From Gemmatimonadaceae bacterium (GTDB taxonomy: Bacteria > Gemmatimonadota > Gemmatimonadetes > Gemmatimonadales > Gemmatimonadaceae): 57,413 bases of DNA. The notes under the pieces are model-generated. The model was not told the origin of the DNA and made no database searches. It saw only the letters and a list, made by a program, of their open reading frames with translations. Numbering within the stretch: position 1 is the stretch's first letter; the number at the start of each line of letters is the position of its first letter. The translations under genes and the position numbers were made by a program. Of this stretch, positions 11,265 to 30,498 are shown piece by piece. The stretch is taken from positions 1 through 57,413 of the forward strand of contig JANWIF010000089.1 in assembly GCA_025450035.1 (NCBI GenBank). The letters run 5' to 3'.

Positions 11265-11834
11265 GTGCAGACCCTCCTGCAGGACTTCCGGTACGCCTTC
11301 CGCACGCTCCGGAAGACGCCGGGCGTCACCTTCGCCGCCGCCCTCGCCCTGACGCTCGGCATTGGCCTAACGACTGCCGCGTTCAGCATCGTGTACGGCG
11401 TGCTGATGCGCGGGCTGCCGTACCCGGGCGCCGACCGCGTGGCGGTCGTCTTTGGCGTGATGTTCACCATCTTCGGCGCCGTCGCCCTCATTTTAGGCGC
11501 CGTAGGCTTGTACGCCGTCATGTCGTTCTCGGTGAGTCGCCGCACACGCGAGGTCGGCATCCGCATGGCCCTTGGCGCACGCGGCCGCACCGTCGCGGGC
11601 ATGATACTTGGCAAGGGCCTCGTCCAGCTCGCTATCGGCGTCAGCCTGGGTCTCCTGCTCGCAACGGGAATCTCGCACCTGCTCGGCGCCGTGCTGTTCG
11701 ACGTCAAGCCGCGCGATCCGTTCGTGTTCGGCGCGGTCGCGGCCGCGCTCGTGACCACGGGCATCCTCGCGTGCGTCGTTCCGGCGATGCGGGCGGTGCG
11801 CGTCGACCCGCTGGTGGCGTTGCGTAACGACTGA
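11265..11834 (+). pseudogene. Internally deleted ADOP/MacB-like ABC permease
   Basis: A 189-codon open frame (GTG start) made of the first 60 or so residues of an ADOP permease (DFRYAFRTLRKTPGVTFAAALALTLGIG, LMRGLPYPGADRVAVV) joined directly to the C-terminal FtsX domain (GLYAVMSFSVSRRTREVGIRMALGARGRTV, ending VRVDPLVALRND). Full-length relatives, including the neighbour at 11858-14395, have about 800-850 residues, so the periplasmic MacB_PCD domain and the middle helices are missing. The frame is intact, so the deletion was in frame or a short product is still made. Probably a decayed paralogue of its convergent neighbour. Confidence 0.75.
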
Positions 11835-11857: not shown

Positions 11858-14395
11858 TTATTCCGCCCTGATCGCGATCGTCGGATCCGTTCTCGCCGCG
11901 CGCCGAGCGGGCCCGTAAATCGCCGCGACCGCCACCGCGGCGAGGACGATCGTGACGATCGCGAACGTCGCCGGATCGGTGGCCGTGGTGTCGAACAGCA
12001 TCGCCCGAATCAACCGCGTCGACGCCACCGCCCCCGCCAGTCCGGCGGCCGCGCCTAAAACCACGAACGTCACGCCATCGCGCAATACCAGCGCCACCAC
12101 GCGTCGCTCCGACGCCCCCAGGGCGATGCGGACGCCGATCTCCCGCGTGCGCTGCGTCACGCTGTACGCCGAGATGCCGTACAAGCCGATGGCGGCGAGC
12201 AGGAGGGCACCGGCGGCGAAGCCGCTGAGTACCGCCGTCATCAGCCGTCGTTGGGCATCGATCGCCGCGGCGCCCGCGCGCATCACGCCGGGATCGCCTC
12301 GAAACTCGATCGCCGGATCGGTGCTCCGTACGGCGGCAGTCACAGCGCCCAACAGGCGCTCAGCGTTAGGCGCACGCACGACGAAATTCATCCACGGCCA
12401 GACCTCGAGCGTGTACGGGAGAAACACCTCTGCGCTGGCGTCCGCGGCGGCCCCGAACTGGCGGACATCGGCGGTCACACCCACCACGGGGAGCGTGATC
12501 GGCTGGCCGACGTCGGTGCGCGCTTGCGACTGGCGACGCACGGTAATGCGTTGGCCGATGGGACTCGACCCGGGCCACATCATCCGCGCCAGCTTCTCAT
12601 TGATCACGAATCCGCCGGCCATCGGCGTGCGCATGTCGTCATCGGTGAACCATCGGCCGGTCACCATCGAGATGCGCATGGTCCGAAGGTAATCCGTGGA
12701 CACGGGATGATACACTGCCTGCACGAGGGGTTGGCCCGTTGCGGGCTCATCGGCTCGCTCCACGCTTGTCGATAGCAGCGCGCCACCGGCCGCGGCGGCA
12801 AATTGGACGCTCGGCACCGCATGCACGGCGTCCAGTATCCGCGCGTACAGCGCAGCCGCAGCCGCCGGAGTATCGTACGCATGCGCAGGCGGGGCGACCG
12901 TGAACTGGATGACGTTGGTGGGGTCGTAGCCTAACGGTACAGACACCAATCGTCGAAAGCTCTGGATGAGCAGCCCCGCGCCGATCAGCAGCGTGAGCGC
13001 GAGAGCGAACTGTACCGACACGAGGAGGTTGCGCACCCGTCGTTCGCGCGTCCCGCCGACGGCGGCGGTGCTGCCGCTCCGAATGCGCCGCATCAGCGGT
13101 CCGCCGGTTGCCTGCAACGCCGGCGCGAGGCCTACCAACAGCGCGGTGACGCACGACGCGGCAAGCGCAAATATCGCCGTGCGCCCGTCCACCGACAGCT
13201 GCGCAGAGAACGGAAGTTGGGCGTCCATCGTATGCCGAACGAAGCCGACGAGCGCGAAGGCAAGCGCCACGCCGAGCGAGCCCGCGATTCCAGCGATCAG
13301 CAGCGCTTCCATGAGCAGCTGGCGCACGAGCCGCCACCGGCCGGCACCGAGTGCGGTGCGCACGGCCAGCTCCCTGCCGCGCGCGCTCCCGCGCACCAGA
13401 AAGAGATTGGCGACATTGGCGCAGGCGAGCAGCAGCACGAGCGCGATGGCTGCGGCGATGAGCAGCAGCGCGGACGCGAGGCCGCCGAACATCTCGCTGC
13501 TCACCGGTTGCAGCGCCACGGACGTCCAGTGCTGCTGGTCCGCCGGGAACGCCGCGGCGAGCCGCTGCTCGATGGTGCGCATGACCGCCGCCGCGTGCGT
13601 GGAATCGACGCCCCCCCCCCCCCCACCCCCCGCACGCACGCGAATCACCGTGCGGCTATCGACGTGCAGCTCGCGACGCGCGAGCACCCCGGGATGCGCG
13701 GCGTCAAAGGCGGTGATCGGCTCCCACAGACGCGTCGGGATCCAGGCGTCGCCGCCGAAATTCGGGTAGGCGAATGCCCGCGGCATGACGCCTACAATCG
13801 TCGTTGGCACACCGTCCATGTCCACGACTCTGCCGAGCGTGGCCCGATCGCCGCCAAACCGCTGCATGAACAGGTCGTACGAGATCACCGCCACGTTGGA
13901 CGCGCCCGACCGTTCCTCATCAGGCAGGAAGGTCCTGCCTAACAGAGGTGGCGTTCCCATGAGGTCGAAAAATCCGGGTGAGACGAACGCGCCGATCTGC
14001 CGAACCTCCTCGTGATGGCCGGGGAGATGCACCTGGTCGCCGCGCACGAACGCCATTCCCTCGATAACGGCCGGTATCGAAGCATTCTGCGCCTGCCAGT
14101 CGTTGAACGTAGGGTACGAGGGCGTGCGAAGACTGCCGTCATCGCTACGCTCGTAGATCGTCCACAACCGATTCGCATCGCGATACGGGAGTCCGCGCAG
14201 CATGATCGTATCCACGACGCTGAACGCCGCCGTGGTGCTCCCGACGCCGAGCGCTAGCGTGACCACCGCGATGATCGTGAATCCGGGCGAACGACGCAGC
14301 GTGCGCACCGCGTACTGCACATCGCGGGCGAGACCCTCGATCAACGCGTGCCGGCGGCCCCGTGGAGACGTCGCCTCCGGATCGTCTGTCGGCAA
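11858..14395 (-). CDS. ADOP-family duplicated FtsX/MacB-like ABC permease
   Basis: 845-residue inner-membrane permease with the duplicated arrangement: helix 1 (IIAVVTLALGVGSTTAAFSV), MacB periplasmic domain, three helices (about 310-440), a second periplasmic domain, then three C-terminal helices ending in the FtsX motif TQRTREIGVRIALGASERRV. The start is TTG at 14395, backed by GGGAG seven bases upstream. Such permeases usually occur without an ATPase and have no proven substrate. A poly-Gly stretch in the first periplasmic domain is encoded by a C14 tract on the plus strand (13611-13624). Confidence 0.9.
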   Translation of the reverse strand: MPTDDPEATSPRGRRHALIEGLARDVQYAVRTLRRSPGFTIIAVVTLALGVGSTTAAFSVVDTIMLRGLPYRDANRLWTIYERSDDGSLRTPSYPTFNDWQAQNASIPAVIEGMAFVRGDQVHLPGHHEEVRQIGAFVSPGFFDLMGTPPLLGRTFLPDEERSGASNVAVISYDLFMQRFGGDRATLGRVVDMDGVPTTIVGVMPRAFAYPNFGGDAWIPTRLWEPITAFDAAHPGVLARRELHVDSRTVIRVRAGGGGGGGVDSTHAAAVMRTIEQRLAAAFPADQQHWTSVALQPVSSEMFGGLASALLLIAAAIALVLLLACANVANLFLVRGSARGRELAVRTALGAGRWRLVRQLLMEALLIAGIAGSLGVALAFALVGFVRHTMDAQLPFSAQLSVDGRTAIFALAASCVTALLVGLAPALQATGGPLMRRIRSGSTAAVGGTRERRVRNLLVSVQFALALTLLIGAGLLIQSFRRLVSVPLGYDPTNVIQFTVAPPAHAYDTPAAAAALYARILDAVHAVPSVQFAAAAGGALLSTSVERADEPATGQPLVQAVYHPVSTDYLRTMRISMVTGRWFTDDDMRTPMAGGFVINEKLARMMWPGSSPIGQRITVRRQSQARTDVGQPITLPVVGVTADVRQFGAAADASAEVFLPYTLEVWPWMNFVVRAPNAERLLGAVTAAVRSTDPAIEFRGDPGVMRAGAAAIDAQRRLMTAVLSGFAAGALLLAAIGLYGISAYSVTQRTREIGVRIALGASERRVVALVLRDGVTFVVLGAAAGLAGAVASTRLIRAMLFDTTATDPATFAIVTIVLAAVAVAAIYGPARRAARTDPTIAIRAE
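13611..13631. repeat. Homopolymer C14-A-C6 inside the ADOP permease gene
   Basis: On the plus strand 14 C, one A and 6 C; read on the coding strand it gives seven Gly in the periplasmic domain. A run this long is prone to slipped-strand mispairing. The gene is in frame at length 14. Confidence 0.9.
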
Positions 14396-28663: not shown

Positions 28664-28673
28664 GGGGGGGGGG
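28664..28673 (+). repeat. G10 tract overlapping the mlaE ribosome-binding site
   Basis: GGAA followed by ten G, ending two bases before the mlaE ATG. The Shine-Dalgarno element is embedded in, and spaced by, the homopolymer, so a change in its length would alter translation start efficiency. Confidence 0.85.
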
Positions 28674-28675
28674 CG

Positions 28676-29545
28676 ATGAGCGCCACTGCGCTTCCCGGCC
28701 CCTCCCTCCCCCCGCACGGGCGCCGCCCAACGGATGACTTCGCCATCCCGCAACGTGCGGCCATTCTGTTCTTCCGGCGTGTGGCGCGCATCACGATCGG
28801 ATTCTTTCTCCAGATCGGACTCCGCGTCCAGTTCTTCACGGAAATCGTGCGTGCGTTTGGCGAGGTGCGGACGTGGATGCCGCTCACGGTGCGGCAGATG
28901 CGGAACATTGGCGTCGACTCGATTCCGTTGGCCGGGATCGTGGCCGCGTTCATTGGGGCGGTGACGGCGTACCAGACCGTCTATCAGCTATTCCCCGGCG
29001 TGCAGCTGTCGGCGGTTGGCTGGATCGTACGACAGAGCGTGGTGCTGGAGCTCGGCCCGCTGCTCACCGCGCTCGTGCTGGCCGGACGGGTGGGCGCGCG
29101 GATGGCCGCCGAGATCGGGACGATGCGCGTTACCGAGCAGATCGACGCGCTGGAGACGCTGGCGTACGACCCGATCGCGTATCTGGTGGTGCCGCGGACG
29201 ATCGCCGGCCTAACCATGGTACCGTTGCTCACGATTCTGGCGATCGCGATCGGGATCGTGTTCGGCGGCATCACGGTGGTGGCGGCCACGAAGGTGCGGC
29301 TCACCGACTACACCAGCGGTCTGCGTCTCACGTTCATCCCGTTTCAGGTGTATTACGCGCTCATCAAGGCGACGTTGTTCGGGACGTCGATCTCGCTCAT
29401 CTGCTCGTATGAGGGATACGTGACCGAGACCGGCGCCGAAGGTGTTGGGCGGTCGACCGCCCGCGCCGTGGTCATCTCCTCGGTGGTCATTCTCCTGCTC
29501 GACGCGCTCACAGCGCTTTACCTCGCCCCGGCTCTCGCCCCATGA
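28676..29545 (+). CDS. mlaE: MlaE-family lipid ABC permease
   Basis: 289 residues. The permease core is clear: IPLAGIVAAFIGAVTAYQTV, LELGPLLTALVLAGRVGARM, AEIGTMRVTEQIDALETLAY and the late CSYEGYVTETGAEGVGRST. It moves phospholipids between inner and outer membrane with an MlaF ATPase and MlaD. The N-terminal 30 residues are extra compared with E. coli MlaE. It overlaps mlaD by four bases (ATGA). No mlaF is present, so the ATPase must be encoded elsewhere. Confidence 0.93.
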   Translation: MSATALPGPSLPPHGRRPTDDFAIPQRAAILFFRRVARITIGFFLQIGLRVQFFTEIVRAFGEVRTWMPLTVRQMRNIGVDSIPLAGIVAAFIGAVTAYQTVYQLFPGVQLSAVGWIVRQSVVLELGPLLTALVLAGRVGARMAAEIGTMRVTEQIDALETLAYDPIAYLVVPRTIAGLTMVPLLTILAIAIGIVFGGITVVAATKVRLTDYTSGLRLTFIPFQVYYALIKATLFGTSISLICSYEGYVTETGAEGVGRSTARAVVISSVVILLLDALTALYLAPALAP

Positions 29546-30498
29546 AGCGACGTGACGAAGTGATTGTCGGTGTATTCGTGACCGTGGCCGTCGTGGTCGG
29601 GGTCGTCGGCACCCTGTGGCTCGCCCGCCGGGGATACAGCAAGTCGTATCCCATGTACGCGGTGTTCGATTGGGGGAACAACGTCAAGACAGGCCAACCC
29701 GTGCTACTCGCGGGCGTGCAAGTCGGGTACGTCGACCAGGTGCACCTCGACCCGGCGGGCGTGCTGGACGTGGCCCTCTCGATCGACAAGCAGTGGAAGA
29801 TTCCCGAGGGAACGACCGCGACGGTCCAGAACGAGGGATTCTTCGGCGACAAGTCGGTCGCGTTGCATCCGTGCTTGCGCGCGCAGGCCACGGTGGGCGT
29901 CGAGGGAGCCGCGGGCGCCGTGCCGCCGGCAACGAGCAGCACACCGACGTGCCGTGCCGGCGCCTTCTATCCGCCGGGTGATACCATCCCCACGGGCAAA
30001 CCCGCGCCGACCATCGATCAGATGCTGGCACGCGTGGACTCGATGAGCGGCTCGCTGTCCGATGTCGTGAAGGCGTTTCAGGTGGAGATGGTGCAGAAGA
30101 ACGGCGTCGAGGATTTGCACAAGACGATTCAATCGACTAACGCGCTGCTGCTCGAGCTCCACCGTGTGGCCGAGCAACAGTCGGCTGCGTTGACGCTCAC
30201 GTTGGCCACGATTCGCAAGAGCGCGAGCGCGCTGGACAGCGCCGCGTTAGACACGACGGTGCGGAACGTGGCGGCAACGACACAGAACCTCAAGCAGATG
30301 ACGTCCAAACTGCAGGAGACGTCCGCCCGGCTCGATTCGGTGATGGAGAGCGTCGCGCACGGGAACGGCACCGTGAGCAAACTGCTCAACGACCCCAGCG
30401 TCTACAACGATATCCACACGCTGCTCGCGCGGCTGGATTCGCTGACGGCAGACATCAAAGCGAATCCGAAGCGGTATATCAATGTGAGGGTATTCTAG
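29542..30498 (+). CDS. mlaD: MlaD-family MCE-domain lipid transfer protein
   Basis: 318 residues: an N-terminal membrane anchor (VIVGVFVTVAVVVGVVGTLWLA), an MCE domain (about 37-115; GNNVKTGQPVLLAGVQVGYVD, GFFGDKSVALHP), a Cys-containing loop, then a long helical region (about 150-318) rich in heptads (TLATIRKSASALDSAALDTT). The long tail suggests a tunnel-forming MCE of the PqiB/YebT or Mce1 kind rather than a short MlaD. Coupled to mlaE by ATGA. Confidence 0.9.
   Translation: MKRRDEVIVGVFVTVAVVVGVVGTLWLARRGYSKSYPMYAVFDWGNNVKTGQPVLLAGVQVGYVDQVHLDPAGVLDVALSIDKQWKIPEGTTATVQNEGFFGDKSVALHPCLRAQATVGVEGAAGAVPPATSSTPTCRAGAFYPPGDTIPTGKPAPTIDQMLARVDSMSGSLSDVVKAFQVEMVQKNGVEDLHKTIQSTNALLLELHRVAEQQSAALTLTLATIRKSASALDSAALDTTVRNVAATTQNLKQMTSKLQETSARLDSVMESVAHGNGTVSKLLNDPSVYNDIHTLLARLDSLTADIKANPKRYINVRVF

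Follow-up and report, generated by a model that had tools for sequence, protein, structure and literature searches.

The permease locus and its poly-C tract

The window analysed here is the whole 57,413-nucleotide contig C89 of a Gemmatimonadaceae MAG (assembly G000; 3.5 Mb in 171 contigs, 81% complete). We identified the following features within it:

11265..11834, plus strand: 189-aa remnant of another ADOP, internally deleted in frame (TIGR03434, two stretches)
11858..14395, minus strand: 845-aa ADOP-family (MacB/FtsX-like) permease carrying the tract (TIGR03434, MacB_PCD, FtsX)
13611..13624, minus strand: C14 run, G14 on the coding strand (sequence)
13611..13631, minus strand: C14-A-C6, codons Gly256-Gly262, 18 nt gained in frame compared with orthologues (alignments)
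28664..28673, plus strand: G10, the second long run of the window (sequence)

The minus-strand ORF at 11858-14395 is complete, begins at a TTG start codon and encodes 845 aa, of which residues 22-845 match profile positions 1-803 of NCBIfam TIGR03434 (ADOP family duplicated permease) with 763.4 bits against a cut-off of 622.3. MacB_PCD and FtsX domains are both present, and the protein thus resembles other ADOP and MacB-like permeases as a full-length member, in agreement with the family and length assigned to it in the original prediction. The neighbouring gene had been described as a deleted ADOP copy, and the ORF at 11265-11834 does consist of an N-terminal stretch of about 64 aa joined to the last approximately 125 residues of the family (profile positions 679-803, best stretch).

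Within the permease ORF the C14 run at 13611-13624 is followed by A at 13625 and C6 at 13626-13631, exactly as predicted; the coding strand reads GCG GGG GGT GGG GGG GGG GGG GGC GTC, so that 21 nt specify seven Gly at residues 256-262. The assembled allele is ON. In silico, loss of one base from C14 reduces the product to 297 aa while gain of one base yields 549 aa, a product of this length only because the wrong frame has no early stop, so that about 290 of its residues are out of frame; the truncation originally expected from a one-base change is roughly right.

Other G/C runs in the window reach at most 7, with the exception of the G10 at 28664-28673. In G004, a congener whose G+C is nearly the same, runs become about 7-8-fold rarer with each extra base and none exceeds 8 in 322 kb; the length of C14 is far beyond chance. 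Base composition was rejected as a cause, the G+C of this congener being 65.4% against 66.4%. The G10 run and the ATG of a 289-aa ORF (28676-29545, an MlaE-like permease by eye) are 2 nt apart, which puts the run in a ribosome-binding-site position where a change of length could tune translation of that ORF.

Comparison of the insertion site with relatives

None of the seven orthologues or nearest homologues aligned (49-63% identical, from congeners and other family members) contains the tract. Where the host permease has seven Gly these relatives have one residue, usually G and in the most distant R, within a stretch resembling RLRS-G-VDS. The insertion is likewise absent from the wider ADOP alignment, which includes those seven, and from three public MAG loci named Gemmatimonadetes or Gemmatimonadaceae, and a seven-Gly loop is private to the Gemmatimonadaceae C14 permease among the ADOP permeases aligned. 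In the alignment with E. coli MacB a gap of 6 residues coincides exactly with the insertion (VRVKEG------FDSAEAE). On our reading of this alignment the insertion should follow a strand (VRVKEG) and precede a helix (FDSAEAEQQL) in the periplasmic domain, and the placement in the first periplasmic domain made originally agrees with it. Because the relatives and MacB all lack the six extra residues, the tract is a private 18-nt in-frame gain, most likely in a loop of that domain.

A second ADOP of the host genome (contig C105, L206; tract at 29853) also contains a private poly-Gly insertion, GGGGGEGGGGGGGS, which is in frame. This insertion falls in the second periplasmic domain, compared with the first in the C14 permease. 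The suggestion that variation is tolerated in this permease family is well supported by the loop insertion and this second case. We rejected the idea that ADOP genes are special targets, as two carry tracts but one of them prompted the search, and no enrichment can be claimed.

Long G/C runs across the genome and the class

The host assembly contains 131 runs (71 + 60) of at least 10 C or G, and C14 is one of approximately 131 similar runs and not a special locus. Congeners G001, G003, G004 and G005 have 7, 1, 1 and 8 such runs respectively, and G002 has 72. For comparison across the class we utilized 296 other genomes of at least 90% completeness, 291 of them with MutL; these 291 have a median of 4 tracts and a 95th percentile of 49. 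Counts in the class's 14 single-contig genomes range from 0 to 17. Tract-rich genomes stand alone in poor genera. These include G118 with 103 tracts against 0-6 in five congeners, G102 with 88 against 2-13 and G105 with 47 against 3-5, and G076 has 301. Because rich genomes occur singly in this way, and given the count in G076, the tract-rich state seems to arise repeatedly within the class.

Relative to G004, G/C runs in the host are 1.3 times as frequent at length 4, 2.2 times at length 5 and 3.1 times at length 6, and runs of length 7 occur at 57 per Mb against 0, the host sample having been partly picked around tracts, which inflates the counts at 10 and above and does not directly affect those below 10. 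From length 5 upwards G/C runs are thus over-represented, by a factor that increases with length, whereas A/T runs show no excess.

Placement, reading frame and contig ends

Coding flanks and frame were called with a codon-usage model trained on the host genome. Coding sequence lies on both sides of 13 of the 73 runs of at least 10 (18%), compared with 1400 of 3000 random 10-bp sites (47%, p=6e-7). Random length errors would keep the frame one time in three. Although the loci are few and junctions were judged by eye, 9 of the 13 intragenic runs keep the frame across the tract (p=0.009 vs 1/3), and of the 4 that are shifted three look like gene junctions and one is a true frameshift, giving a ratio of 9:1. 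In G076 the frame is kept at 16 runs and shifted at 4; each of the 4 is a junction by eye, and some of the 16 may be junctions too. The true frameshift in the host is a G13 run (C22:1179-1191, L157) in what appears by eye to be an MFS-type transporter, the best candidate for an OFF allele in the assembly.

Among tracts with a gene on one side only, 25 lie upstream of genes and 10 downstream. Enrichment of poly-G as Shine-Dalgarno sequence was rejected, the upstream tracts comprising 13 G and 12 C with no sense-strand preference.

Contig ends of the host assembly hold a marked excess of runs, 20 of 96 runs of at least 8 lying within 150 bp of an end where 1.2 are expected, and 14 of the 20 are C at left ends or G at right ends. 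True poly-G tracts also cluster at contig ends in Illumina assemblies (22 of 31 tracts; PMC4235727). Real tracts in short-read assemblies typically cluster in this way, and so do poly-G read tails; part of the contig-end tails in the host may be artefacts. A G62 run terminates the right end of contig C51 (L178) and is possibly a poly-G read tail.

Origin of the tract

The original prediction raised possible phase variation at C14. Two properties of a contingency locus are present, namely a long simple repeat inside a reading frame and, in silico, loss of the product upon a single-unit change; conservation of the tract in orthologues, which is supporting evidence and not strictly required, is not seen among the relatives compared. 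Selected phase variation would mean that the population benefits from turning the permease ON and OFF by reversible frameshifts and that the tract is kept for this reason. With 14 bases the run belongs among the poly-G/C tracts by which genes are switched in Neisseria (PMC4235727) and Campylobacter (PMC4965091), C14 lies in mid-gene, the adjoining ADOP copy is already inactivated, and the upstream bias of long tracts elsewhere in the genome is as in Gardnerella (PMC11287997). Against this, the tract is missing from every relative examined, it is one of about 131 tracts that are under-represented in genes, nearly all of those inside genes are in the ON state, and the genes that the tracts touch are functionally unrelated. 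We consider selection for switching quite unlikely, and the idea that the tract had been selected was not supported. What stands of the earlier suggestion is a coding tract that is real in the assembly and hypermutable in kind, at which one base more or less would destroy the permease; phase variation of the permease is a possibility, as C14 would be expected to slip, and C14 resembles a contingency locus solely in that frameshifts, given its length and position, would be frequent and destructive. The tract is without sign of having been kept for switching and we have not filed it as a phase-variable locus. Only three papers mention both Gemmatimonadota and phase variation, and to judge by title and abstract none deals with phase variation in this phylum.

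It might instead be supposed that errors of two-colour chemistry at poly-G, or mistakes of the assembler, lengthened the G/C runs in this MAG. In favour of such errors, the excess is limited to some MAGs, single-contig genomes of the class have few tracts, and C accumulates at left and G at right contig ends, with the G62 run among them. Random errors are however not expected to preserve frame at 9:1 (or as in G076, where no clear frameshift accompanies the 16), nor to avoid gene interiors; the permease has gained 18 nt without loss of frame, the G/C excess rises smoothly from length 5, and clustering at contig ends is known for real tracts. We consider an artefact improbable.

We favour a slippage expansion, in which C14 would be one product of a genome-wide process, kept as an in-frame gain to a Gly loop, and not a locus-specific switch; this is probably correct, because the private insertions, the avoidance of gene interiors, the frame bias and the restriction of the excess to G/C argue for a real, slippage-driven expansion kept where tolerated. 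Replication slippage would have lengthened a short G/C run to C14, and the gain would have been retained since it is in frame and merely lengthens the Gly loop of the first periplasmic domain, which we infer to be tolerant of it. Selection on frame and place would then filter the expanded tracts, and as a by-product C14 would be expected to shift between ON and OFF frames at a rate that is low but real. The exact length of fourteen is the assembled one and stands as a candidate value.

Mismatch repair

Loss of MutL might drive the genome-wide expansion, and would then be a cause beneath slippage expansion and not an alternative to it. No match to MutL was found in the host assembly (81% complete). 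The five genomes lacking MutL among the 296 of at least 90% completeness have 15, 36, 1, 102 and 50 tracts, against the median of 4 in those with MutL (Mann-Whitney p=0.02; Fisher p=0.005 at a cut of 15). However the place of mutL in the host coincides with a gap between contigs, C5 beginning inside batD and C119 ending inside miaA beside bshA, so that its loss is at most putative, and the MutS of the host is uninterrupted with its FYEMF and DEIGRGT motifs present. G076 has its 301 tracts despite possessing both MutL and MutS, 52 of the 291 MutL-bearing genomes reach at least 15 tracts, and A/T runs in the host are not expanded. Absence of MutL is weakly associated with tract count, an association confounded by assembly quality. 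With contigs stopping on either side of mutL and many MutL-bearing genomes rich in tracts, we rejected MutL loss as a clean explanation and regard it as an unlikely driver.

Contigs also break near mutL in G001, G003 and G030. Of the batD-mutL-miaA region, G002 yielded no more than the far flank, and G005 and G059 yielded nothing. The region is thus repeatedly broken at contig ends in the family, and absence of MutL in such MAGs is unreliable. A second copy of bshA on the short contig C139 of the host (L106) is 69% identical to the congener query, compared with 87% for the other copy, and is probably contaminant sequence from another species.

Relation to known tract-rich bacteria

Most known examples of long poly-G/C contingency tracts come from host-associated bacteria. 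Campylobacter jejuni, which is without mismatch repair (PMC4235727), has 29 poly-G/C loci of length at least 7 in strain NCTC11168 (PMC4965091). Many long G/C homopolymers, some of them inside ORFs, are common to C. jejuni and the Gemmatimonadaceae MAG; the latter, in contrast, is GC-rich and its 131 runs of at least 10 lie mostly outside gene interiors, those within genes being nearly all in frame. In Gardnerella long homopolymer tracts are likewise abundant and about 70% of G/C tracts lie upstream of ORFs (PMC11287997), comparable with the upstream excess among the one-sided cases here. Phase variation has been experimentally shown in Gardnerella (PMC11287997) whereas the tracts described here are known from assembled sequence.

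We tentatively raise the possibility, itself doubtful, that an extreme richness in poly-G/C evolved independently in some uncultured lineages of Gemmatimonadetes (131 in the host and 301 in G076 against the median of 4), which retained MutS and, in the case of G076 at least, MutL as well. G/C runs would then be lengthened specifically by some mechanism distinct from classical loss of mismatch repair, and this would give GC-rich environmental bacteria, across their genomes, a set of genes prone to slippage and of equally prone 5′ regions, the C14 permease included. Recurrent, sporadic enrichment in these GC-rich environmental Gemmatimonadetes would show that tracts arise, and are filtered by frame, without obvious loss of mismatch repair. 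It would also be a warning that MAG contigs break at poly-C tracts and that the absence of a gene from such MAGs, mutL being an example, needs careful reading.

In G076 a C61 run (C12:13517, L237) lies directly before a prepilin-like GFTLVEM motif.
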